64,000 bases of DNA. Origin: an uncultured bacterium (lineage in GTDB: Bacteria > Bacillota > Clostridia > Oscillospirales > Oscillospiraceae). The notes below the pieces were generated by a model, which saw nothing but the letters and a program-made list of their open reading frames with translations, made no database searches and was not told the origin of the DNA. The translations under genes were made by a program, and so were the position numbers. Positions within the stretch are counted from its first letter, which is position 1; each line of letters begins with the position of its first letter. Below are positions 33,308 to 45,752 of the stretch, piece after piece. Where the stretch lies: assembly GCA_945873205.1 (NCBI GenBank), contig CAMCCC010000001.1, forward strand, positions 1 to 64,000, in the 5' to 3' direction.

Positions 33308-34126
33308 ATGGAAATCGAAGAAAAGATCAACGCCGCTGCGGCTTACCTGCTGGAACACACCACCCAGCGGCCCACCATCGGTCTGGTGCTGGGCAGCGGG
33401 CTGGGTGACTTTGCCGACACGCTGACGGATGCGGTGCGGATTCCTTTTTCCCAGATCCCCAATTTCCCGGTCCCCACGGCTCCGGGCCATGCGGGCGCGC
33501 TGGTATTTGGAAAGAAGCAAGGCAAGGACGTGGTGGTGCTTCAGGGCCGCATCCACTTCTATGAGGGGCTGCCCCAGCGGGAGATCACGCTGCCGGTCCG
33601 GGTTCTGGCCGCCATCGGCGTCAAACAGCTGATCCTGACCAACGCGGCAGGCGGCGTAAACATGGCCTATCACCCGGGAGACCTGATGCTGATTGCAGAC
33701 CACATCAACTATTCCTTCTCCAACCCCCTGATCGGCCCCAATCTGGAGGGCTTTGGCCCCCGCTTCCCGGACGCCAGCGACATTTATACGGCCCAGCTGC
33801 GTACCGCCATCAAGAGCGCGGCCGCTGAGGCGGGGATTCCTTTGCAGGAGGGCGTATACATGATGTTCTCCGGGCCCAGCTATGAGACCCCTGCCGAGAT
33901 TCGCATGGCCCGGGTCCTGGGGGCGGACGCGGTGGGGATGTCCACGGTCCCGGAGGCGCTGGTGGCTGCCCATTGCGGGCTGCAGGTGGTGGGCATTTCC
34001 TGCATCACCAACATGGCCGCCGGGGTATTGCCCCGGAAGCTGGTGCATGAAGAAGTCATGGAAACCGCCGCCCGGGTACACGATACCTTCCAGCAGCTGC
34101 TGGAGCTGGTGCTTGCCGTAATTTGA
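33308..34126 (+). CDS. Purine nucleoside phosphorylase I
   Basis: 272 residues, trimeric-type PNP. It splits inosine and guanosine with phosphate for purine salvage. Visible are the phosphate site GLVLGSGLGDFAD, HAGALVFGK, the GRIHFYEG loop, TNAAGGVN, GPSYETPAEIRM, the ribose/base contacts in VGMSTVPEALVAAHCG, and CITNMAAG. AAAAGGAGAT precedes the ATG. It stands alone between its own promoter and terminator. Confidence 0.94.
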   Translation: MEIEEKINAAAAYLLEHTTQRPTIGLVLGSGLGDFADTLTDAVRIPFSQIPNFPVPTAPGHAGALVFGKKQGKDVVVLQGRIHFYEGLPQREITLPVRVLAAIGVKQLILTNAAGGVNMAYHPGDLMLIADHINYSFSNPLIGPNLEGFGPRFPDASDIYTAQLRTAIKSAAAEAGIPLQEGVYMMFSGPSYETPAEIRMARVLGADAVGMSTVPEALVAAHCGLQVVGISCITNMAAGVLPRKLVHEEVMETAARVHDTFQQLLELVLAVI

Positions 34127-34150
34127 GAAAACGTTCCGAAGCTCCGCTGC

Positions 34151-34217
34151 GGGGCACATCCGCTGCTTTCATCCGGCGTCAGAAGGATGAATTTGCAGGT
34201 GGATGTGCCCCTGTTTT
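34151..34217 (+). terminator. Terminator after purine nucleoside phosphorylase
   Basis: A long hairpin with outer stem GGGGCACATCC / GGATGTGCCCC (34151-34161 with 34201-34211), inner CATCC/GGATG pairing, and TTTTT at 34213-34217. Confidence 0.85.
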
Positions 34218-34392
34218 TGGGGCTTGTCAGAGGCCGGTACACAGGTTTATCAGTTCTTGGCGGTTTTGCACAAAAAAACCTTGATAAATACAGTCATTCG
34301 TGCTACATTGATTTTGTACGGTTTTTGACAAATAATGACATATTATACAGTGTAAAGAATGATATACCGCATACCGCGAGAGAGGCTGCCAT
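34218..34392 (+). promoter_or_regulatory. AT-rich leader upstream of the pilus locus
   Basis: No gene is seen. GC content falls clearly here. TTGACA lies at 34327-34332 and several TATAAT-like hexamers lie 34343-34375, but none is 16-18 bases from it, so the exact promoter cannot be fixed. An alternative sigma factor or a regulator-assisted promoter is possible. Confidence 0.4.
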
Positions 34393-34653
34393 ATGACAGA
34401 TAAGGAATTGCGAGGGCTGAGCCGGCGCGATCTGTTGGAGCTGCTTGTTGCCAAGGAGAAGGAGAACCAGCAGCTGCGCCAGGAGTTGGAGCAGGCCCGG
34501 GCAGAACTGAATAAAAGACAAATCGACGTTGCCAAAACCGGGACCATGGCGGAGGCGGCGCTGCTGCTCAACGGAATATTTGACGCGGCTGACCGGGCGG
34601 CCCGGCAGTACCTGGAGAATATCAAGCTCCGGGCGGAAGGGACAAGTAAATGA
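34393..34653 (+). CDS. Small coiled-coil protein at the head of the pilus locus
   Basis: 86 residues, soluble, no signal peptide. The first half is a charged coiled coil (ELLVAKEKENQQLRQELEQA) and the second half an amphipathic helix (EAALLLNGIFDAADRAARQY). No catalytic motif. It overlaps the signal peptidase gene by four bases (ATGA), so the two are translated together. Similar small coiled-coil genes sit beside signal peptidases in surface-protein loci of Clostridia; a chaperone or targeting role for the large cargo protein is plausible but unproven. No strong ribosome-binding site; GAGAGAGG is near. Confidence 0.7.
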   Translation: MTDKELRGLSRRDLLELLVAKEKENQQLRQELEQARAELNKRQIDVAKTGTMAEAALLLNGIFDAADRAARQYLENIKLRAEGTSK

Positions 34654-35243
34654 GAAAAGAGAAACGCAGCCAGCCCCAGCAGCCGCCAACCCTGGAGCAG
34701 CTCACCGCAGAGCTGGCGCGGGAGAACTATAAGAGGCGCTTTGGCCGCGTGCTGCGCAGCACCCTGTTTACACTGGTGGTTGTGGCGGCGATGGCGGTGC
34801 TGGTGGCCACCATCTGGATGCCGGTGCTGCAGATCTACGGCTCCTCCATGACCCCGACCCTGAACGAAGGGGAGATCGTGGTTTCCGTGAAGGGCTCGGA
34901 CTTTGAACCGGGGGATCTGGTGGCATTTTATCTGGGCAACAAAATTCTGGTCAAGCGCTGTATTGCGGGGCCGGGACAATGGGTGGATATCGATGAAAAC
35001 GGCGACGTCTCTGTGGATGGGCAGCTCCTGGATGAGCCCTATCTGAAAGAGAAGGCCCTGGGGGAGTGCGACCAAAGCTTTCCCTATCAGGTGCCGGAGA
35101 GCCGTTATTTCTGCATGGGAGATCACCGGGCTACGTCGGTGGATTCCCGCCATTCTGCTGTGGGCTGTGTGGCGGAGGAACAGATCGTGGGAAAGATCGT
35201 GTTCCGGGTCTGGCCGCTGAGCGGATTTGGTACATTGCGATAG
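34650..35243 (+). CDS. lepB: Signal peptidase I of the pilus locus
   Basis: 197 residues. One N-terminal membrane helix (about 38-60) leads into the S26 protease domain. The catalytic serine is in YGSSMTPTL, the catalytic lysine in ILVKRCIAGPG, and box E reads GDHRATSVDSRH. It cleaves signal peptides during secretion. Its position between the coiled-coil gene and the 1868-residue surface protein suggests it serves the pilus proteins. It starts within the preceding stop codon region. Confidence 0.92.
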   Translation: MRKEKRSQPQQPPTLEQLTAELARENYKRRFGRVLRSTLFTLVVVAAMAVLVATIWMPVLQIYGSSMTPTLNEGEIVVSVKGSDFEPGDLVAFYLGNKILVKRCIAGPGQWVDIDENGDVSVDGQLLDEPYLKEKALGECDQSFPYQVPESRYFCMGDHRATSVDSRHSAVGCVAEEQIVGKIVFRVWPLSGFGTLR

Positions 35244-35261
35244 AAAGGCAGGAAGTTCTGC

Positions 35262-38200
35262 ATGAATCAAAGTACAGGGAAATATTCCGTGCTGAAAAAG
35301 AGACGAACGCGCAGGCGCCGGATCGTGACCGGCCTGGCCTGCGTGGTGGTGTTCTGCACGGTATATGCGCTGATCCTCCCTGCCATTACCCTGGAGAAGT
35401 CCGGGTGCGAAATCCCGGAGCACGTCCATACCCAGGCGTGCTATTCCCAGGTGCTGTCGATGGAAAAGACGGTGCCGGTCTGTGATGCGCAGACGCTGGG
35501 TCTCCATCAGCACGACGGCAGCTGCTATGACGGCGAAGGGAATCTGGTCTGCGGCTATGCGGATTTTGTTGTGCACCAGCACGACGCCTCCTGCTATGAC
35601 GCAGACGGAAACTTCTGGTGCCCCCTGCCGGAGATCGGGGTTCACCAGCATACCGCCAGCTGCTACACGCAGGGTGCGGAAGTACATACCCATACGGAGG
35701 ATTGCTATACCGTGGAGCGGGGCGAGCTGCTGTGCCCAGAGCATGTGCATACCGAGGCGTGCTACACGGAAAGCACCGTCCTTGCCTGCACCGAGGAGCA
35801 TGAACACGAGGAGGGCTGCTATGAGACGCGGCGGGAGCTGTGCTGCGGCATCGACAGCGACCATCAGCACACCGACGCATGCTATGAGCCGATAAAGACG
35901 CTGATCTGCGATCTGCCCACGGAGCCGGCAGAGGAGGACAGGGAGCCGGTGCTGATCTGCGGAATGCCGGAGATCATCCTCCATGAGCATACGGCAGACT
36001 GCTTTGACGCAAACGGCAGGCCTGTCTGTGGGATGCTTCAGGTCCTGGCCCATCAGCACAGTGCAGAGTGCTTCAACACCGTGGAGCAGCCGGCGGACAC
36101 CGAGACGCTGAAGTGCACCAATACGGAGGAGAACCACATCCACACCGCCCTGTGCTACGGCACCTGGGAGCTGACCTGCGGTCTGGAGGAACATACCCAC
36201 ACGGAGGAATGCAGCACTGCGGAAGAAACAGAAGCGACAGAAGAAACGGAAGAAACGACCGAACCGGAGGAAGAGATGTCCGGCATGGAGATCGATCCCA
36301 GCCTGCCGGTTATGGGCACTGCCTACGCTTCTGGCGCCAAAACACGCGCTTATTCGGTGATGACTCTGAATGCGGATTCGTCCGATACAACGGAAACAAC
36401 CGCTCCGCTGGATGTGAAAAACTATGTCACAACAGCAACGCTTTATTACCGCACCGATGAAAACGCAGCGTGGACCAATGTAGAAGGCGCGACGGGTATT
36501 CCCGGCGACGCGGATTTCAAGCTGGTGATCAGCTATGGCAATGTCCCTATCGAAACCCTTCTGGCGGCAGACGGGAAGATGACCTATACCCTTCCTGCGC
36601 TGTTTCGCAACGCTACGGCCAACGGCAAAATCACCAGCGGCAGCGCCGAGGTGGGCACCATCACGGTGGTGGGCGGCACGGTCACCCTTGCCTTTGATAC
36701 CACATGGCTGGCACAGCAACAGACGGAGACGAATACCGTCATCGGCGGCGATTTCTATGTGGAGGCAGAAGTTGACCTGTCGCAGGTCGACCAAGATGGA
36801 ACCGGTGAAATTGTCATTGGCACGACAACGATCAAGATTGATTTTGAGGGTGACATTGTCGCCAAGTACGGAAATGTGGATCTGAGCAAAACCGTATCCG
36901 CCATCTCGGAGGAGACAGACGGCGATTATCTGACCTACACCCTGACCGTTACGGCCGGTGCGGACGGCTGTCCGGATGTCAAGGTGGTGGATGCCTTTGC
37001 GGATACCCAGTACATCGAGGAATATATGGGCGTGACGGGAGTGTCTACCGCCACCAATGATGCGGATGGCCCCACGGAAACCGGAGGTACCGGAAACGTA
37101 TACATTGGCGCGGCACCCACGGAGGAAAATCCCATCCCGGATCCCGCAGGTGAAAATCCGACGAAACCCAGCACGCTGGTCTGGGTCATCGGCAATATGG
37201 GAGTCAATGAAACCAGAACCTTGACATACCGTGTCAAGCTGAAGGATGCATACACCGGCGTCACGACAAAGGGAAATCTTCAGAACACGGCGGTTGTTTA
37301 CTCCAAAACCTACCAGCGGGACAGTGATACTGTCACCTTTACGCCCAAAGCCGAAGCTACCATGAGCAAAGTGGCCTCGACGTTCACCCCCGGCGAAAAC
37401 GGCGGCGGAACCATTACTTACACCATCTGGGTACAGGCAAACGCCCAGAACAGTTATGTCCTGGACAACGTGAAAATTGTCGATGCGCTGGATGGTTCTA
37501 TTCAAAATATGAATCCGACCCCGTCTGCTATCCGCCAATATCTGTCCTACGATGAAAACTCGTTCCACCTGTATCAGGGCGGCTCCAACGGCCAGAACGG
37601 AAGCAGTGGCTTAACGGAAATTCAGGAGGTCACCGGACCGACCTTTACAGATACGGACAATGACGGCAAGAAGAACGACAGCTTCACCTACTATGTGGGT
37701 CCTCTGGCTCCCAATGAAAGCAAGACCCTGACCTACACGGTGAATGTGGAGCCCGGTGTGTTCATGGCAGCGGGAAACGAAGATGTCCGGATCAACAACC
37801 GCGCCCGGATGTTTACCGACGACAAGCGCACAGACGGAAACCAGCCCCTGAACGCCTACAACTGTTTTAAGACTCTTGACCGTAAGGCTTGGAGCCGAAA
37901 GCTGGTGGGCGAAAAACAGAAAACGGAAACCACCGTGGACATGAGCGGCAGCGTTTATGACGCCACCGGCAGTTCCATTGACAATCCCGGCAGCTTCACT
38001 GTGCCTGCCGGCAGCTACAAGTATCAGGTGGTGGCCAATGAGGCCGGAGATTGGGATCTGTCCTCTGCCTCTCTCAGTGATACCCTAAGCGGCGGGTATA
38101 TGCAATTTGTGGGCTATGTCCAGGTGGACGCCTATACCATCAGCAGCAATGCACCCGGTTCCGGCCTGGATGATGCAGATGCCGTTGCCAATCTGAGCGC

Positions 38201-40868
38201 CCGCACGCCCGATCAAACCGTCTGGGTGAAAGTTGACGGGAAAACCACCTTCAGCTTCACACCTGCGCAGATTGGATTGAATGGAACGCAAGCCTATCTT
38301 TTGACCTACTACGCGCAGCCCGCGAATACCGATGGTATTACGCAGGTGGTGGTAAGCAACAGCTTCTACCTGACCGGCACAGTGGGAATCGGCAATTATA
38401 CATATGTGCTCACCGGAATTGGCGTGGAGGCCTCTGTCGTCGTGGAGGGCGACAACAGCTTCGCTGCGGAAAAGCAGAGCTGGTACTACGAAGAACCCCA
38501 GGTGACTAGCGGAGATTTTGTCAATGGCGCACTGTACTGGGTTATTAAGGTGGATGGAAAGGTTCTGCCTTCAGGCACTGCCATTAAGGATGTCACGAAT
38601 GCGGCCGGCGGGTCGGCTCACTATATTCGGGGTACCTCCTTTGTGGGCGTATATACGGGCAATTTGGGAACGAACTCTCTCGCGGATTATGCGGATTTTG
38701 CCGCACTGACAAGCAGTAATCAGCTGACAGCCCTGGACAGCGGCAGTTATTCCATTGTAATAGACAACAATTCTCTGACGCTGACCCTGAACACAGAGAT
38801 TCTCTTGGCACAGGATGATTCCCTTTATCTGATTGTCAAGACCGAGCCGAGTCAACTGCCCGCCAATAAACGAGACGCCTTTACCTACAACAATAAGCTG
38901 CAAAGCTCCTCTGACGGCACCAACTGGGTGGACCACAATGTGGCCAGCAAGACCCTGTACGGCAGCGAAAATATCTTTAAGGAACTGGGGCGTGTCTTTA
39001 CCTATTCCGGTTCCGGCGACTCCATCACGGACATCCAGAACGGCACCAATCAGAACATCAACACAGGTTCGCTGGACGGAGCGGGTACCTATGTGGCCTG
39101 GCAGATTCACGTGAACTATGAAGGCAGCCTGTCCGGGCGGTACCGTGTGGTCGAGCAGATCCCGAATGGGATGGAGGTAACCTATGTCCGCATATGGTGG
39201 CTGGGAAATAAAGCAAATCAGCAGAGTCCCAAACCCACCTTTGTGAAACTCACGCAGGAGGAGATTGCCGCCCTGGGCGGCGGCTGGACGGAGTACGCAA
39301 AGACCTTGCCCAGCAACAACGCGGGAAGCCAGACGAATTACTATTACACCAACGGTCAGCAGGTGATCTGGGATATTGACAACCTGGTAGCCGGCGGCGG
39401 AACCCGGGACGATTATGCCGTGGAGATACAGATCGTCTGTAAGGTAACGGATCCTGACGTTCTTCTGGGCGGCGCAAGCAGGGAGTTCAACAATGTGGTC
39501 AGCCTGCAAAATTCCGAAGGAACGACCATCGGCAATGACAGCAACGGTGTGACAATTGGAAAACAAAGCCTGTCGAAAACCGGCACCTATAACCCCGAAA
39601 CCAATGGCGGCCGGTATCCCTTTAAGATCACGCTGAATGAGTTGGGCGAGGATCTGGTCAGCGGGTCGGATACCATCACCCTGGTGGACGAGCTGAGCAA
39701 CACCCTGATTCTGGACACCTCCTCTATCCAGGTAGTGAACACCAAGACAGGTGAGACGGTCGCTGGCTGGACCGCTTCCGTGGAGGGACAGACGCTGAAA
39801 ATTGTTTTGCCGGACAACCTGCCCCTGACGGTTACTTATGAAGCAACAGTCAACGCCGCGCCCGGGCAGACCATCTCCATCTCCAACAACGCCCATTGGG
39901 AAGGCTATACCACGCCCAGCGGCGGCAGCGTGGAAGATCATAATTTCAAATATGCCACCGGCGGTACCGTGGGTGCGGACACTTCTCCCAGCGTAACAGT
40001 CAAAAAACTGGATCAATACAATACCAGCGCAGCCCTGCGCGGTGCGGAGTTTAAACTCGTGGAGGTAACCTACACAGACGATGGTACGTTTACCGAAACA
40101 ACGGGCGGCCTTTCCCTGACCGGTACTACCGGCGATGACGGAACCCTGACCTTCGGTAAGGACAGCGGGCAGACCATGAAGTACAATACTGTCTTCCGGC
40201 TGACCGAAACAAGGGCTCCAGATGGCTATGTGCTGGATGCCGCGCCCCACTACTTCGCTGTGGCAAAGCAGCAGGAGGACGGGAATTATCCCACCTTCCC
40301 GGATGGTGTGACCGTCTGGTACCAAAGCGCGAATTACACCTATCAGGCCTACAACCACAAGGGCGAAGCCACGGTGGAAAAGAAGTTCCTGGACGGCGGC
40401 GGTAACGCTCTGGCAAAAATTGACGGCACCTACCGTTTCGGAATCTATGCCGAAGAAAATCCCACCGGCAATCCGCTGCAAACGGTGAGCATCACATATG
40501 CGAACAACACGGTCACACCGGAGGTCGGCACGGCAAAGTTCACAAACCTGACCCTTGGCAGCACCTATTACATCTACGAGCTGGATGATTCTGGTCAGCC
40601 AATTTCGGACAATGCGCTGGCCACGGTGAACGGCAGCAGCTTCATTGTCACTTACACCAACGGTCCGGCGATAACAGTTCCCAACAATGGAAGCAGCCCC
40701 GACACCGTCACCGTAACCAACCGGGTCTGCTACCCCGAACTGCCCAAAACCGGCGGAGCCGGTACCGCACTGTATACCATAGGAGGTCTGCTGCTGATGG
40801 CAGCGGCAGGATTCTTCCTGTTGTATAACCATACCAAACGCAGAAGGGAGGATGCTCCATCTTCCTGA
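35262..40868 (+). CDS. Giant LPKTG surface protein with twelve HxHxxxC repeats (probable pilus tip adhesin)
   Basis: 1868 residues. Basic N-terminus (LKKRRTRRRR) and one hydrophobic segment ending ALILPAITLE. Residues 54-318 hold twelve HxHxxxC units, most followed by a second Cys, then an acidic Thr/Glu linker. About 1200 residues of beta-sandwich, DUF11/isopeptide-like modules follow, many starting with a lysine-bearing strand (VDLSKTVS, ATMSKVAS, KQSLSKTG). A SpaA-like domain near 1578 has an E-box (TETRAPDGY), a Cna B-like domain comes next, and LPKTG (1827-1831), a membrane helix and a basic tail end the protein. Likely anchored or incorporated by the sortases downstream. GGCAGGAAG is upstream. 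Confidence 0.9.
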   Translation: MNQSTGKYSVLKKRRTRRRRIVTGLACVVVFCTVYALILPAITLEKSGCEIPEHVHTQACYSQVLSMEKTVPVCDAQTLGLHQHDGSCYDGEGNLVCGYADFVVHQHDASCYDADGNFWCPLPEIGVHQHTASCYTQGAEVHTHTEDCYTVERGELLCPEHVHTEACYTESTVLACTEEHEHEEGCYETRRELCCGIDSDHQHTDACYEPIKTLICDLPTEPAEEDREPVLICGMPEIILHEHTADCFDANGRPVCGMLQVLAHQHSAECFNTVEQPADTETLKCTNTEENHIHTALCYGTWELTCGLEEHTHTEECSTAEETEATEETEETTEPEEEMSGMEIDPSLPVMGTAYASGAKTRAYSVMTLNADSSDTTETTAPLDVKNYVTTATLYYRTDENAAWTNVEGATGIPGDADFKLVISYGNVPIETLLAADGKMTYTLPALFRNATANGKITSGSAEVGTITVVGGTVTLAFDTTWLAQQQTETNTVIGGDFYVEAEVDLSQVDQDGTGEIVIGTTTIKIDFEGDIVAKYGNVDLSKTVSAISEETDGDYLTYTLTVTAGADGCPDVKVVDAFADTQYIEEYMGVTGVSTATNDADGPTETGGTGNVYIGAAPTEENPIPDPAGENPTKPSTLVWVIGNMGVNETRTLTYRVKLKDAYTGVTTKGNLQNTAVVYSKTYQRDSDTVTFTPKAEATMSKVASTFTPGENGGGTITYTIWVQANAQNSYVLDNVKIVDALDGSIQNMNPTPSAIRQYLSYDENSFHLYQGGSNGQNGSSGLTEIQEVTGPTFTDTDNDGKKNDSFTYYVGPLAPNESKTLTYTVNVEPGVFMAAGNEDVRINNRARMFTDDKRTDGNQPLNAYNCFKTLDRKAWSRKLVGEKQKTETTVDMSGSVYDATGSSIDNPGSFTVPAGSYKYQVVANEAGDWDLSSASLSDTLSGGYMQFVGYVQVDAYTISSNAPGSGLDDADAVANLSARTPDQTVWVKVDGKTTFSFTPAQIGLNGTQAYLLTYYAQPANTDGITQVVVSNSFYLTGTVGIGNYTYVLTGIGVEASVVVEGDNSFAAEKQSWYYEEPQVTSGDFVNGALYWVIKVDGKVLPSGTAIKDVTNAAGGSAHYIRGTSFVGVYTGNLGTNSLADYADFAALTSSNQLTALDSGSYSIVIDNNSLTLTLNTEILLAQDDSLYLIVKTEPSQLPANKRDAFTYNNKLQSSSDGTNWVDHNVASKTLYGSENIFKELGRVFTYSGSGDSITDIQNGTNQNINTGSLDGAGTYVAWQIHVNYEGSLSGRYRVVEQIPNGMEVTYVRIWWLGNKANQQSPKPTFVKLTQEEIAALGGGWTEYAKTLPSNNAGSQTNYYYTNGQQVIWDIDNLVAGGGTRDDYAVEIQIVCKVTDPDVLLGGASREFNNVVSLQNSEGTTIGNDSNGVTIGKQSLSKTGTYNPETNGGRYPFKITLNELGEDLVSGSDTITLVDELSNTLILDTSSIQVVNTKTGETVAGWTASVEGQTLKIVLPDNLPLTVTYEATVNAAPGQTISISNNAHWEGYTTPSGGSVEDHNFKYATGGTVGADTSPSVTVKKLDQYNTSAALRGAEFKLVEVTYTDDGTFTETTGGLSLTGTTGDDGTLTFGKDSGQTMKYNTVFRLTETRAPDGYVLDAAPHYFAVAKQQEDGNYPTFPDGVTVWYQSANYTYQAYNHKGEATVEKKFLDGGGNALAKIDGTYRFGIYAEENPTGNPLQTVSITYANNTVTPEVGTAKFTNLTLGSTYYIYELDDSGQPISDNALATVNGSSFIVTYTNGPAITVPNNGSSPDTVTVTNRVCYPELPKTGGAGTALYTIGGLLLMAAAGFFLLYNHTKRRREDAPSS
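35421..36216 (+). repeat. Coding repeat array: twelve HxHxxxC units
   Basis: In-frame protein repeat, each unit 18-40 residues. Unit cores are EHVHTQAC, LHQHDGSC, VHQHDASC, VHQHTASC, VHTHTEDC, EHVHTEAC, EHEHEEGC, DHQHTDAC, LHEHTADC, AHQHSAEC, NHIHTALC and EHTHTEEC. Eleven of the twelve have Tyr or Phe after the Cys, and most have a further Cys 8-20 residues on (for example LVCG, FWCP, LLCP, LICD, LTCG). DNA-level identity between units is low, so the array is old. Confidence 0.92.
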
Positions 40869-40936
40869 CGCGCAAAATAATCCGCAATTCCAAGCGACCC
40901 CTTTTTGAAAAAGATACATTTGAAAGGATGAACGCA

Positions 40937-42376
40937 ATGAAACACGCAAGAAAACTCGCCAGCCTTCTGCTGGCCCTGGTCATGGTTTTCGCCCTGGCCA
41001 CCACCGCGTTTGCCGCTGGCAATGGCACAATCACCGTGAAGAACACGGTTAAGGATGCTGACTATACCATCTACCGCCTTTTCGACCTGGAAAGCTACGC
41101 TGGCAGTGGAGAAAATGATGCCCACTCTTACAAGGTTGCTGACAAATGGACTAATTACTTTGCTGATGGCGCAGAGGGCCGGAACTACTTCGATGTAGAC
41201 GGGAACGGCTATGTGACTGCAAAAGCGAACGCAAACCTTGTTGAATTCACACAGAAGGCTCTGACTTACGCTACGAACAACACCATCGCAAACGACGGCA
41301 CCACGAAGGGTACTGGCGAGGACATTCAATTCACAGGTCTGGATCTGGGCTATTATCTGGTGGATTCCTCTGTTGGCGCACTGTGCGCCCTGACTACCAC
41401 CGACCCCAATGGCGAGGTCATCGAAAAGAACGCCAACCCCACTCTGGACAAGGATGTCAAGGAAGACTCCACTGGCACATGGGGCGACAAGAACGATGCT
41501 GAAATCGGTGAAGACGTGGAGTTCAAGGCGACAATCACTGTCCAGGGCTTTGCCAAGGACTACGTCATGCATGATAAGATGGACGATGGCCTGACCTACA
41601 AGGAAGTCACCAGTGTGACTTTGAATGGCAATATCGTTACCGCATCTGGCAATTATGAAGTCGTGACCTCTACCACCGATCAGTGCACTTTTGAGGTGAA
41701 ATTCAGTGAGACATTCTGCGCCAGCCTCAAGAGCGGCGACGTAATTGTTGTTTACTACAAGGCTACTCTGAATGATAACGCTGTCGTCAAGGAACCCGAA
41801 AACAATAATGCTCACCTGGAGTATAAGGACAACAACGGCAAAACCCACAATACCGAGAAAAGCAACACTAAGACCTATACTTGGGAACTGCCCGTTCTGA
41901 AGTATGCCAACGGCAATACCGCCAATGTCCTGGCTGGAGCCAAGTTCTCCCTTTACACTGATGAAGCCTGCACTATTGCTGTCAAGTTCCATGAGGTGAA
42001 GGCGGAAGGCAAAACCACCGTTTACAGAGTCGAGCCTAACGGTACAGTTACCGAGATTACCACGGATAACACCGGTAAATTCAGAATTGAAGGCCTGGAT
42101 GCTGGTACATACTACCTGAAGGAAACCGAGGCCCCTGTTGGTTATAATAAGCTGAATACTGTTGTCACGGTTACTATTGATCATAGCGGCAAGATCAACG
42201 CTACTACAGAAAAACCCGAGGGCGCAACACAGATCGAAGTGGAGAATAAAGCCGGCACCGAGCTGCCCTCCACCGGCGGCATGGGCACCACCCTCTTCTA
42301 TGTGCTGGGTTCCGTGCTGGTTGTGGGCGCGGTGGTGCTGCTGGTCACCAGAAAGCGCATGAGCAATAAGGGCTGA
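40937..42376 (+). CDS. LPSTG major pilin (isopeptide-forming fimbrial subunit)
   Basis: 479 residues. Signal peptide with the hydrophobic stretch LASLLLALVMVFALATTAFA. Two or three Ig-like domains follow. NPTLDKDVKED offers a candidate pilin lysine for sortase cross-linking, and E-box YLKETEAPVGY marks the SpaA-type C-terminal domain (about 325-440). The sorting signal is LPSTG (443-447), a membrane helix and a basic tail. GAAAGGA supports the ATG at 40937 over that at 40928. GC is near 60% at both ends but about 47% in the middle. Located between the tip protein and the sortase, as in three-gene pilus operons. Confidence 0.92.
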   Translation: MKHARKLASLLLALVMVFALATTAFAAGNGTITVKNTVKDADYTIYRLFDLESYAGSGENDAHSYKVADKWTNYFADGAEGRNYFDVDGNGYVTAKANANLVEFTQKALTYATNNTIANDGTTKGTGEDIQFTGLDLGYYLVDSSVGALCALTTTDPNGEVIEKNANPTLDKDVKEDSTGTWGDKNDAEIGEDVEFKATITVQGFAKDYVMHDKMDDGLTYKEVTSVTLNGNIVTASGNYEVVTSTTDQCTFEVKFSETFCASLKSGDVIVVYYKATLNDNAVVKEPENNNAHLEYKDNNGKTHNTEKSNTKTYTWELPVLKYANGNTANVLAGAKFSLYTDEACTIAVKFHEVKAEGKTTVYRVEPNGTVTEITTDNTGKFRIEGLDAGTYYLKETEAPVGYNKLNTVVTVTIDHSGKINATTEKPEGATQIEVENKAGTELPSTGGMGTTLFYVLGSVLVVGAVVLLVTRKRMSNKG

Positions 42377-42425
42377 TTTCACAGCCTGTCCCCGCAAAGT
42401 CAAAAAGCAAATCCCGCTGTGAGCG

Positions 42426-42450
42426 CCGGGGGAGGGGAGACTCCCCCCGG
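42426..42450 (+). promoter_or_regulatory. GC-rich intercistronic hairpin between pilin and sortase
   Basis: CCGGGGGAG pairs with CTCCCCCCGG (one bulge). There is no T-run, so it is not a standard terminator; it may protect the pilin mRNA 3' end or lower downstream expression. It lies in the 99-base gap before the sortase. Confidence 0.55.
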
Positions 42451-42475
42451 CCCGCAGCGGCAAGGAGAACCCAAT

Positions 42476-43333
42476 ATGAAGAAAAAAGGCAATCATCTCA
42501 TTACAATATTGTTGGTTTTGATCTTCCTCCTTGGGCTGTCCTTGCTGCTGTACCCTGCCGTCAGCGATTACTGGAACTCCAAGCACCAGACCCGGGCCAT
42601 CGCGGTCTATTCCGAGGAAGTCTCCGGCCTGGACAAGGATCAGTATCAGGCCCTTTGGGCGGCGGCTGCCGCCTATAACGCCTCCCTTCGGGAGCGGGAC
42701 AATGCCTACCTGCTGACGGAGGAACAGAAAGCGGCCTATGAACAGCTGCTGAATGTTTCCGGCCTGGGCATTATGGGCTATATTGAAATCCCCAGTATCG
42801 ACTGCTCCCTGCCCATCTACCACGGCACGGAGGAATCGGTTCTGCAAATTGCCATCGGCCACCTGGAATGGTCCAGCCTGCCAGTGGGCGGCGAGAGCAC
42901 CCACTGCGTCCTCTCCGGCCACCGGGGACTTCCCAGCGCCAAGCTGTTCACCAACCTGGACAAGCTGCAGGAGGGAGACGTGTTCATGCTCCGGGTGCTG
43001 GATGAGGTGCTGACCTATGAGGTGGACCAGATCCTGATTGTGGAGCCCCAGGAGATCGCAGCGCTGCAGATCGCGGAAGGGGAGGATTACTGCACCCTGG
43101 TGACCTGCACCCCCTACGGCATCAACACCCACCGGCTGCTGGTCCGGGGGCATCGGATCGAGAACGCCCCGGAGGCCAGGCTGGTTCGCGTGACGGCGGA
43201 CGCGGTTCAGATTGAGCCGCTGCTGGTGGCGCCCATTGTGGCCCTTCCCATGCTGCTGTTGCTTCTGATCCTGTTGCTGCTGCCAAAGCGGCCAAAGAAT
43301 GATAACGGAGGTTACGCCGATGAAGAAATATAA
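42476..43333 (+). CDS. srtC: Class C sortase (pilin polymerase)
   Basis: 285 residues with membrane helices at both ends (about 9-29 and 253-275). The catalytic His is in LSGHRGLPSAKLFTNLDKL, matching the class C pattern, and the Cys and Arg are in TLVTCTPYGINTHRLLVRG. It would join pilin subunits through LPXTG and pilin lysines. The ATG at 42476 has AAGGAG upstream; the frame extends further up but only through the intercistronic hairpin. It overlaps the next gene by 14 bases. Confidence 0.93.
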   Translation: MKKKGNHLITILLVLIFLLGLSLLLYPAVSDYWNSKHQTRAIAVYSEEVSGLDKDQYQALWAAAAAYNASLRERDNAYLLTEEQKAAYEQLLNVSGLGIMGYIEIPSIDCSLPIYHGTEESVLQIAIGHLEWSSLPVGGESTHCVLSGHRGLPSAKLFTNLDKLQEGDVFMLRVLDEVLTYEVDQILIVEPQEIAALQIAEGEDYCTLVTCTPYGINTHRLLVRGHRIENAPEARLVRVTADAVQIEPLLVAPIVALPMLLLLLILLLLPKRPKNDNGGYADEEI

Positions 43334-44288
43334 ATCCCTGGCTGCCCTGCTGCTGGGCTTCCTATTGTCGGCGGCGCTGTTTCCAATGCAGGCACTGGCG
43401 GCAGGGAGCATTGACTTAAACCGGGACGCCAGCCTTACCATTACCGAGAAGTATGGAGAGACGCCCTTATCCGGGGTGCGCTTTGACCTCTATCTGGTCT
43501 CCACCGTGGATGAAACAGGAGAGCTGACGCCGGTGAGCGCCTTTGAAAAATATGCCGCCGAGCTGGATATTCGCGGCCAGAATGACAGCGCCTGGCAGGC
43601 ACTGGCGGAAAAGCTGGAGCGGGAGCTTCTGCTGGGGAATCTGGACCGGCTCATACCGGCAGATTCCGCCGTCACCGGGGAGCAGGGCAGGGCCAGCTTC
43701 CCCTCGCCCGGCCGGAAACTGACCCTGGGCCTGTATCTGGTCCCGGGGACCCGGATAGAAAAAGAGGGCTATGTCTATTCCACGGCCCCCTTCTTTGTCC
43801 TGCTGCCGGAGCTTAATGAACAGGAAAATACCTGGAATTACGCACCTGCGGCTATGGCCAAACCCGGCAAAAACCCGGTGCTGGTGGATTTTGAGGTGAT
43901 CAAAATCTGGAGGGACGACTGCCATAAAGACCAGCGCCCCCAGAGCATCACCATTTCGCTGCTCTGTGACGGGAAGGTAGATGATACCATCACCCTGCCT
44001 TACAACGGCGCATGGAAGTACACCTGGCCGCCCAAAGATTCAAACCACATTTGGACGGTTACGGAGGTAAAGCTCCCCGGCTATCAGGAGCCGGAGGTTC
44101 AGCAGGTAGGAAACACCTTCATCGTCACCAACACCTGCAGCAAACCGGGCACACCGGTTGAGCCGGGAAAGCCCATCCTGCCCCAGACCGGGCAGCTCTG
44201 GTGGCCGGTGCCTGTGCTGCTGGCGGCGGGCCTGCTGTTTGTGGTTATCGGCCTGATCCGCCGGAGGGGTGCCCGCCATGAGCCATAA
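43320..44288 (+). CDS. LPQTG minor pilin or pilus anchor subunit
   Basis: 322 residues. Signal peptide (SLAALLLGFLLSAALFPMQA then LAA), an N-terminal SpaA-like domain (ITEKYGETPLSGVRFDLYLV), a Cna B-type domain (VDFEVIKIWRDDCHKDQRPQ, then YQEPEVQQVGNTFIVTN), the sorting signal LPQTG at 287-291, a membrane helix and RRRGARHEP. Its size and place suit the basal pilin that links the fibre to the wall. GGAGG precedes the ATG. It overlaps both neighbouring sortase genes. Confidence 0.88.
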   Translation: MKKYKSLAALLLGFLLSAALFPMQALAAGSIDLNRDASLTITEKYGETPLSGVRFDLYLVSTVDETGELTPVSAFEKYAAELDIRGQNDSAWQALAEKLERELLLGNLDRLIPADSAVTGEQGRASFPSPGRKLTLGLYLVPGTRIEKEGYVYSTAPFFVLLPELNEQENTWNYAPAAMAKPGKNPVLVDFEVIKIWRDDCHKDQRPQSITISLLCDGKVDDTITLPYNGAWKYTWPPKDSNHIWTVTEVKLPGYQEPEVQQVGNTFIVTNTCSKPGTPVEPGKPILPQTGQLWWPVPVLLAAGLLFVVIGLIRRRGARHEP

Positions 44289-44946
44289 GAGGAAAGGCGG
44301 CTTATGGATTACGCTGGGGCTGCTGCTGATTGCGGCGGCCCTTTCCCTCGTCTGCTATAATCTGTACGATGCGCTGCGGGCGGAACAATCGGCCTGGCAG
44401 ATCATAAGCAGCCTGGAGGAGGCTTCGGAGGAGGAAAGCCGGATAGCAGCCCCGGCGGAAGCCTCCGAAAAAGCGGCTTTGCCACAGGAGCCTGTTTTGG
44501 AAGCCCAGATGGAGATGCCGGTGAAAACCGTTGACGGGATCGAAATCGTCGGCATCCTGCGTATCCCGGCCCTCGAATTGGAGCTGCCGATTATCAGCCA
44601 GTGGAGTTACCCCGATCTGCAAACCGCCCCCTGCCGCTACAGTGGGTCGGCGTATCTGAACAATCTGATCCTCTGCGGGCACAACTATTCCTCCCATTTT
44701 GGCAGGCTGAAGGAGCTGCGGGAGGGGGACATCGTCACCTTTACGGATATGGACGGCAATCTGTTTACCTATGAGATGGCGGAGCGGGAGACTTTGATGC
44801 CCACATCCATTGAGGAGATGACCAGCGGCGACTGGGATCTGACGCTGTTCACCTGCACCGTGGGCGGACAAAGCCGGGTGACCGTTCGCTGCACGCTGGC
44901 CGAGAGGGAAGCCGGAACCAACGCAGGCACAATAGACAAGAAATAA
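44278..44946 (+). CDS. Second sortase of the pilus locus
   Basis: 222 residues. One N-terminal membrane helix, a variable linker rich in Glu and Ala (about 40-75), then the sortase domain. The catalytic His lies in LCGHNYSSHFGRLKEL, the Cys in LTLFTCTVGG and the Arg in SRVTVRC. It lacks the C-terminal helix of class C and looks closer to class B or D, so it may attach the finished pilus to peptidoglycan (inference). It overlaps the LPQTG gene by 11 bases. Last gene of the locus. Confidence 0.85.
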   Translation: MSHKRKGGLWITLGLLLIAAALSLVCYNLYDALRAEQSAWQIISSLEEASEEESRIAAPAEASEKAALPQEPVLEAQMEMPVKTVDGIEIVGILRIPALELELPIISQWSYPDLQTAPCRYSGSAYLNNLILCGHNYSSHFGRLKELREGDIVTFTDMDGNLFTYEMAERETLMPTSIEEMTSGDWDLTLFTCTVGGQSRVTVRCTLAEREAGTNAGTIDKK

Positions 44947-44960
44947 ACCGGGAACGAAAG

Positions 44961-44990
44961 TGCCCACCGATGCTTTATGATCGGTGGGCA
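44961..44990 (+). terminator. Terminator after the pilus locus
   Basis: Perfect 10-bp stem TGCCCACCGA / TCGGTGGGCA with a 10-base loop, followed by only TTT; moderate strength. Confidence 0.65.
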
Positions 44991-45053
44991 TTTCAGCAAT
45001 TGCTGCCGCATTTGGACACACCTTGCCGGAATAAAATGAAGCGAGGTGAGATG

Positions 45054-45752
45054 ATGCTGGAAGCTGCGTTTTTACTTTTGATGAACAGCCTGCTGCTGAT
45101 GCTGCGCATTGCGCCGGGGGACTCCTTTCCCAAGCCCCTGAGCCGGGAGGAGGAACAGAACTATCTGGAGCGCTGGAGCCAGGGAGATATCGAAAGCCGG
45201 AACATTTTGGTGGAGCACAACCTGCGCCTGGTGGCCCACATTATCAAGAAGTATTTCACCCAGAGCGAGGATATAGAAGATCTGATCTCCATTGGCACCA
45301 TTGGACTGATCAAAGGGATCAACACCTACAAGCCGGAAAAGGGCGTGCGCCTGGCCACCTATGCCAGCAGATGCATTGAGAATGAAATACTGATGCACTT
45401 CCGGGCCAATAAAAAGTCGGCGGGGGATCTGAGCCTTTCTGACGCGCTGGATGTGGACAGCGAGGGCAACGGCCTGTCGGTGATGGACGTGGTGGCCACG
45501 GAGGAGGATCTGGCGGATACGCTGGGCAGCCGTGAGCTTTGCGGCAGCCTGAGAAGCTGCATCGCGGAAACGCTGGATGCGCGGGAGGCGCAGATCATAC
45601 AGCTCCGCTATGGACTGGACGGCAAGGCGCCACGCACCCAGCGGGAGACGGCAAAGCTCTGCGGCATCAGCCGAAGCTATGTATCACGCCTGGAAAAGCG
45701 GGCGCTGGAAAAGCTGCGCGCGGCCCTGGGGGAGGACGCTTCGCCCTTCTGA
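45054..45752 (+). CDS. sigK: RNA polymerase sigma-K, late mother-cell sigma factor
   Basis: 232 residues. It drives late mother-cell genes in sporulation. A hydrophobic pro-sequence (AAFLLLMNSLLLMLRI) opens the protein, then FPKPLSREEEQNYLERWSQG and NLRLVAHIIKKY of region 2, and region 4 ends it (CGISRSYVSRLEKRALEKL). The pro-sequence implies activation by a membrane protease, and in Bacillus the enzyme is an M50 protease (SpoIVFB). The gene is continuous, with no skin element. GAGGTGAG precedes the ATGs at 45051 and 45054. Confidence 0.92.
   Translation: MLEAAFLLLMNSLLLMLRIAPGDSFPKPLSREEEQNYLERWSQGDIESRNILVEHNLRLVAHIIKKYFTQSEDIEDLISIGTIGLIKGINTYKPEKGVRLATYASRCIENEILMHFRANKKSAGDLSLSDALDVDSEGNGLSVMDVVATEEDLADTLGSRELCGSLRSCIAETLDAREAQIIQLRYGLDGKAPRTQRETAKLCGISRSYVSRLEKRALEKLRAALGEDASPF

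Follow-up and report, generated by a model that had tools for sequence, protein, structure and literature searches.

The locus described here raises the question of what a regular array of histidines and cysteines does near the N terminus of a very large surface protein. Within the window, i.e., the entire stretch of 64,000 nucleotides under analysis, the open reading frame (ORF) 35262-40868 (+) encodes an LPKTG protein of 1,868 residues, in which twelve HxHxxxC motifs are found within residues 54-317. The first motif is at residue 54 (nt 35421) and the last one, covering residues 311-317, ends at nt 36212. The array is preceded by a basic and hydrophobic N-terminal segment and followed by an acidic linker, a surface-protein part of ~1,500 mostly unassigned residues and the LPKTG anchor. 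An earlier note on this DNA had reported twelve such motifs with 24 motif histidines and over 20 cysteines, which we could confirm in place and number. The motif histidines are all 24 histidines of residues 51-325, and 25 cysteines lie in the array itself (residues 49-317; 35406-36212 (+)), versus 4 cysteines and 9 histidines in the 1,543 residues after residue 325. The tyrosine or phenylalanine that had been noted behind the motifs directly follows 11 of the 12, while the last motif is followed by serine.

Repeats are common in surface proteins, and the array could be a product of chance or an ordinary low-complexity repeat with functionless ligands. However, when residues 51-325 (275 residues) were shuffled 2,000 times, a mean of 0.18 and a maximum of 4 HxHxxxC motifs were obtained versus 12 in the real sequence. 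The twelve units are, moreover, only 20% alike at the 11 non-ligand positions compared. Together with the codon changes described below, these results make chance or low complexity an extremely improbable explanation.

The earlier note had given most motifs a partner cysteine, which leaves the limits of the repeating unit to be defined. In 24 arrays from 22 ORFs of relatives, counted with the window omitted, a cysteine is present at most 13 residues upstream of 221 of 229 motifs, and 59 of 229 have no cysteine within 13 residues downstream. The commonest upstream spacings are 7 residues (115 of the 229 motifs) and 4 residues (57). The upstream cysteine is found in 23 of 24 first units and in all 24 last units, and 22 of the 24 last units lack a cysteine within 13 residues downstream of the motif. 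Since arrays start with a cysteine and stop at the motif cysteine, the unit is C-x(mostly 4 or 7)-H-x-H-x3-C, which on its pattern of residues is a predicted four-ligand C2H2 site with the second cysteine placed upstream. A unit consisting of HxHxxxC plus a downstream cysteine was rejected, as arrays end without such a cysteine.

In the window, the partner cysteine is present upstream in 11 of the 12 units, at spacings of x2, x3, x4 (two), x5, x6 and x7 (five), and absent from unit 5. All units are on the forward strand. The form C-x7-HxH-x3-C is seen in unit 2 (residues 74-88; 35481-35525), unit 3 (residues 97-111; 35550-35594), whose four ligands are invariant across 9 aligned sequences, unit 4 (residues 120-134; 35619-35663), unit 9 (residues 233-247; 35958-36002) and unit 10 (residues 256-270; 36027-36071). 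C-x4-HxH-x3-C is found in unit 1 (residues 49-60; 35406-35441) and unit 12 (residues 306-317; 36177-36212), the last cysteine of which closes the array. The remaining full units are unit 6 (C-x2-HxH-x3-C, residues 158-167; 35733-35762), unit 7 (C-x3-HxH-x3-C, residues 176-186; 35787-35819), unit 8 (C-x5-HxH-x3-C, residues 195-207; 35844-35882), for which Cys 194 is an alternative ligand, and unit 11 (C-x6-HxH-x3-C, residues 285-298; 36114-36155). Unit 5 (residues 142-148; 35685-35705) reads HxH-x3-C. One of Cys 194/195 as well as Cys 216 are surplus.

A scan of GTDB contigs returned eight relatives, the titles of which name Oscillospiraceae, Clostridiales or Clostridia MAGs and, in one case, a "bacterium". 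Genome searches covered the host family, class and phylum. The array, when used as query, matched 32 of 200 genomes from the host family, and a two-unit profile (A3) matched 62 of 400 genomes of the family, 9 of 341 of the class and 3 of 398 of the phylum, the window's own genome (G000) being counted in all four tallies. Since profile A3 had been derived from the window, six GTDB loci and members of the family, every one of them picked for its full ligand sets, coverage is best for the family figure. One class-level match (G856) contains internal stops and is probably not a gene. Within G000, array matches are confined to one gene, and the array was without a match in plasmid and phage collections.

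The units were compared in 65 ORFs with 606 motifs, the window's ORF included, each of which had to carry three or more HxHxxxC motifs; the loci were chosen partly by a profile of full units, and units that had been lost altogether are invisible in this set. L009, which is the window's own copy, and L088, a locus on the same contig as L001, were dropped, L111 starts inside a gene, and L130, L134 and L135, with fewer than three motifs, lie outside the 65. In 61 of 64 ORFs, no more than 100 residues separate the upstream stop from the start of the array. The proteins of this set, whose selection required three or more motifs, are predicted to have 3 to 19 sites each. Other ORFs of at least 100 amino acids, in six frames of the window plus 66 loci, add up to 545,670 residues, in which the full unit C-x(4|7)-HxH-x3-C was counted six times. 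These six are two each in L130, L134 and L135 (1,191 to 2,810 residues), which look like copies of the same module reduced to two units.

Across the 606 motifs, 481 belong to exact x4 or x7 units, i.e., they show the two cysteines and two histidines at constrained spacing that characterize C2H2 zinc sites in general. The commonest period is 23, and the consensus of the unit reads L-x-C-G-L-E-E-(S-E-G)-H-T-H-T-[DE]-x-C-Y, with a glutamate four residues after the first cysteine in 80% and a tyrosine or phenylalanine after the motif in 487 of 606 cases. The ligands are retained in a nearly all-or-none fashion. Among cysteine pairs at the x4 and x7 spacings, to which this count is limited (481 of the 606 motifs), 481 enclose both histidines, 1 encloses one histidine and 69 enclose none. 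All 69 pairs without histidines involve a cysteine of a neighbouring full unit, and none is in register. The second cysteine is missing in 5 otherwise full units, and 21 of the 606 motifs have no cysteine within 11 residues upstream.

Codon changes follow the same pattern. In 12 pairwise comparisons of arrays, which share sequences and hence are non-independent, ligand codons were identical in 396 cases, synonymous in 155 and replaced in 4, as compared with 1,338 identical, 536 synonymous and 871 replaced at the other codons. The ligand codons are under purifying selection, and the 155 synonymous versus 4 replacement changes argue against functionless ligands.

The strict retention of histidines also bears on the idea of a disulfide-knotted stalk or cap, one of the possibilities raised by the earlier note, in which the two cysteines of a unit would form a disulfide and the HxH pair would serve another purpose. 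Secreted cysteines that come in pairs and a pairing that is conserved are both in line with it. The histidine pair, however, is kept as strictly as the cysteine pair, and a pure disulfide is thus insufficient as an explanation. Furthermore, neither DsbB nor VKOR turned up in any of 25 array genomes (0/25 each), whose completeness is at least 90%, and DsbA-like proteins, which speak for such a stalk, were detected in 3/25. The same searches in 14 control genomes detected DsbB in 6, VKOR in 3 and DsbA in 9. G000, with an assembly that is 91% complete, returned 0 for all three. These counts lower the disulfide reading, even though spontaneous oxidation or other oxidants may still act, and the hosts are presumably anaerobic, judging from the titles of the relatives. 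Overall, we consider disulfides an improbable basis of the array.

With four fixed ligands per unit, metal sites are the explanation that we favour. We propose that small four-ligand C2H2 sites, C-x(mostly 4 or 7)-H-x-H-x3-C-[Y/F], are strung together in the array and that each would fold around a single metal ion, with Zn(II) as the most likely one. Cys2His2 is a classical ligand set of Zn(II), and zinc is our best guess for this reason; Cu(I) and other metals may be candidates on sequence. The window array would have room for ~11 full sites and one three-ligand site. Its variable Cys-to-His spacing, the lack of an upstream cysteine in unit 5 and the surplus cysteines count against the proposal, as does the fact that a Pfam and NCBIfam scan of seven neighbouring proteins (34650-45752) found no metal protein.

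The earlier note had named zinc, copper or haem as candidates. The C2H2 units, the near all-or-none ligands and the purifying selection back metal sites, and haem is not supported, as the array contains no CxxCH, the hallmark of multihaem cytochromes, nor any "CH" at all. To our knowledge, Cys2His2 with HxH is not a usual pattern of haem c or ferredoxin proteins either. A redox module, using haem, copper or Fe-S for electron transfer along the pilus, would make sense of the density of histidines and cysteines on a pilus protein of presumed anaerobes; given the missing haem signature, we regard it as very improbable.

Where such sites would be located follows from the gene context. The array gene is part of a cluster on the forward strand that is headed by an 86-residue ORF (34393-34653), Leu/Glu/Ala-rich and coiled-coil-looking, with a 4-nt overlap with the next start codon. 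This next gene encodes a signal peptidase I (34650-35243; PF10502, 112 bits, cut-off 22.9; TIGR02227, 110.6 bits, cut-off 47) and ends 18 nt before the array gene. Downstream of the array gene (35262-40868) follow a major pilin of the SpaH/EbpB family (40928-42376; NF033902, 120.5 bits, cut-off 95), a class C (pilus) sortase (42419-43333; NF033745, 277.1 bits, cut-off 160), a minor, probably basal, pilin with Cna_B and pilin D1 domains (43299-44288; PF05738, 45.8 bits; PF16555, 26.2 bits) and a second sortase (44269-44946; PF04203, 63 bits), which reached no NCBIfam cut-off. Judged by these matches, the genes around the array gene are the usual set of a sortase-pilus operon, with putative co-transcription. 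A gene for a SigK-like sporulation sigma factor is located directly after the pilus genes (44970-45752; NF004471, 287.5 bits, cut-off 252; below the TIGR02846 cut-off), and a SigK-like homologue is also found upstream of the array gene in locus L001.

The array protein itself carries a SpaA prealbumin-like domain (residues 1577-1672; 39990-40277 (+); PF17802, 51.7 bits, cut-off 23.1) and the LPKTG anchor (residues 1825-1862; 40734-40847 (+); PF00746, 31.2 bits; TIGR01167, 27.2 bits). Class C pilus tip proteins are recognized by a C-terminal LPXTG and by a class C sortase and a major pilin next to them, all of which are seen here, and from its size, gene order and anchor the array protein is the presumed tip pilin. 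Among 57 ORFs of the set that are complete at their C-terminal end, 36 end in a strict LPxTG, 14 in a looser sorting-like signal and 7 in neither.

The array had previously been placed at the base of the protein. Probably the reverse applies: with the LPKTG sorting signal at the C terminus, removal of the export signal would leave the N-terminal array as the part most distant from the wall; the base would fit only with an N-terminal segment that stays in the membrane. The export segment comprises residues 1-41 (35262-35384 (+)), is basic and hydrophobic, ends in ...YALILPA and is putatively cleaved. In ten ORFs of the set (L113, L114, L115, L117, L123, L125, L137, L138, L145 and L146), what reads as a classical signal peptide precedes the array, which speaks for a free N terminus there. 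Some ORFs, like that of the window (LPAIT), have P-[AV]-x-T as the last residues ahead of the array. A signal peptidase I homologue was found immediately upstream in 31 of 36 ORFs with this ending and in 1 of 25 ORFs without it, in a tally that omits the window and sets aside L111, L117 and L137, which have no room upstream. This distribution suggests that a dedicated signal peptidase acts on the P-[AV]-x-T signal.

The array immediately follows the export signal at the N-terminal end of the sortase-anchored protein, the presumed tip pilin, and would therefore become the outermost, acidic and metal-folded end of the pilus once the signal is removed. The metal would mainly be structural, folding each unit, instead of being a store for uptake. 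From sequence, we infer that metal is bound, that it is zinc with a single ion per unit, that the array is outermost and that the metal is structural, and we judge the complete explanation, a structural Zn(II) C2H2 string at the outer end of the pilus, to be probable.

Given the precedent of the streptococcal histidine triad (Pht) proteins, metal capture remains the main rival to this explanation. The array would then be a surface sponge for zinc or another metal that passes ions on to an uptake system, in a Pht-like manner. The high number of sites on an exposed protein would suit this role, and PhtD, in whose repeated units Zn is bound at a tetrahedral site, hands the metal to AdcAII (PMC3842936). 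Of the 25 array genomes, 15, among them G000, contain a ZnuA-family binding protein. The other 10 genomes are without a ZnuA match, however, and in G000 it is located on contig C25, the array being on C1. One scan of 34120-34420 for inverted repeats with arms of at least 12 showed none as a possible Zur site. Lastly, the near all-or-none retention of four spaced ligands is more readily reconciled with fixed structural sites than with a loose sponge. Based on this retention and on the presence of ZnuA in only 15 of 25 genomes and on another contig in G000, we prefer structural folding over storage and rate capture as unlikely.

Comparison with known systems places the array close to, yet outside of, several families. 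The nearest functional analogue is the pneumococcal Pht family of Gram-positive surface proteins, whose short repeats hold tetrahedral zinc sites and can feed a transporter (PMC3842936). The array shares with it repeated short units on a Gram-positive surface protein and is not a member of the family. The ligands of Pht are three histidines and one glutamate in HxxHxH, whereas those of the array are Cys2His2 with HxH, and none of the 12 window units has a histidine three residues before the first motif histidine. No Pfam or NCBIfam model matches the array significantly, and the scanned neighbours are pilus genes and not a transporter. Corynebacterium diphtheriae possesses the surface zinc proteins ZnuE, ZnuF and ZnuG, which carry an HxD/HxH motif and one of which has a sortase signal (PMC12445094). 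They differ from the array in having one or two HxD/HxH domains and in belonging to a zinc transporter cluster; the portions of the article considered mention no cysteine ligands and contain the authors' statement that the role of the motif is unclear (PMC12445094).

The array was also compared with two families outside the zinc uptake systems, starting with class C tip pilins, with which the array protein shares its large size, the LPXTG signal and the company of a major pilin, a class C sortase, a minor pilin and a signal peptidase. It departs from them in that no family model covers the array, and we know of no tip pilin with such an arrangement of cysteines and histidines. The second are the eukaryotic CHHC zinc fingers of the U11-48K/GTSF1 type, intracellular modules with the ligand order C-H-H-C, a last step of H-x3-C and H-x9-H between the histidines. 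The array likewise has two cysteines and two histidines in the order C-H-H-C with H-x3-C, but HxH in place of H-x9-H, and neither the array nor 25 two-unit pieces gave a significant match in Pfam.

More generally, no model of Pfam or NCBIfam matched the array above chance, and the same holds for the 25 two-unit pieces in Pfam. In a sequence search of the PDB, the array gave one chance match (E 1.3) and the two-unit profile none up to E 10. Several candidates were rejected because they came nowhere near the curated cut-offs: the Pfam family PCYCGC (2 of 25 two-unit pieces, best E 0.0025), RING and other Pfam families (1 of 25 pieces each) and the NCBIfam models TIGR03051 (E 0.0069) and NF004230 (E 0.0038), which were hit by the arrays of two relatives. 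Searches of open PMC papers brought up neither the module nor its motif or consensus, and the earlier note's statement that no function has been characterized for such an array agrees with our failure to find one in this literature. The profile search that it had called for showed that the module recurs within the host family. As far as these searches show, the array is a real, unnamed module, and repeated metal sites at the cell surface have precedent.

Beyond the earlier note, the analysis yields a recurrent module with a sharper definition of its unit, present in about one in six of the sampled family genomes and without a match in Pfam, NCBIfam or the PDB. If zinc is bound, gut-type Clostridia would have pili and other surface proteins with multiple metal sites, and adhesion would be linked to metal supply, perhaps also to the withholding of zinc by the host. 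One extension of the structural explanation is that the array would be unfolded without zinc and form a rigid chain of beads with it, so that gut zinc would switch the reach or binding of the pilus or, in some relatives, that of the cell-wall hydrolase domain directly behind the array. We consider such a switch speculative and distinctly unlikely.

The domain in question is indicated by a regular expression for the CHAP (cell-wall hydrolase) signature, which starts 35-75 residues downstream of the array in 14 of 65 ORFs (L001, L004, L089, L094, L096, L097, L099, L100, L104, L119, L121, L124, L142 and L143). Pfam confirmed CHAP in all three ORFs scanned (L001, L004 and L099), and the array protein of the window had no CHAP match in Pfam. 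In locus L141 (2619-7494), a break divides the array gene into two ORFs that lie in different frames, both among the 65. Several array genes per genome were observed for L113-L115 (G1089), L107 and L139 (G1022) and L126, L140 and L141 (G1110).
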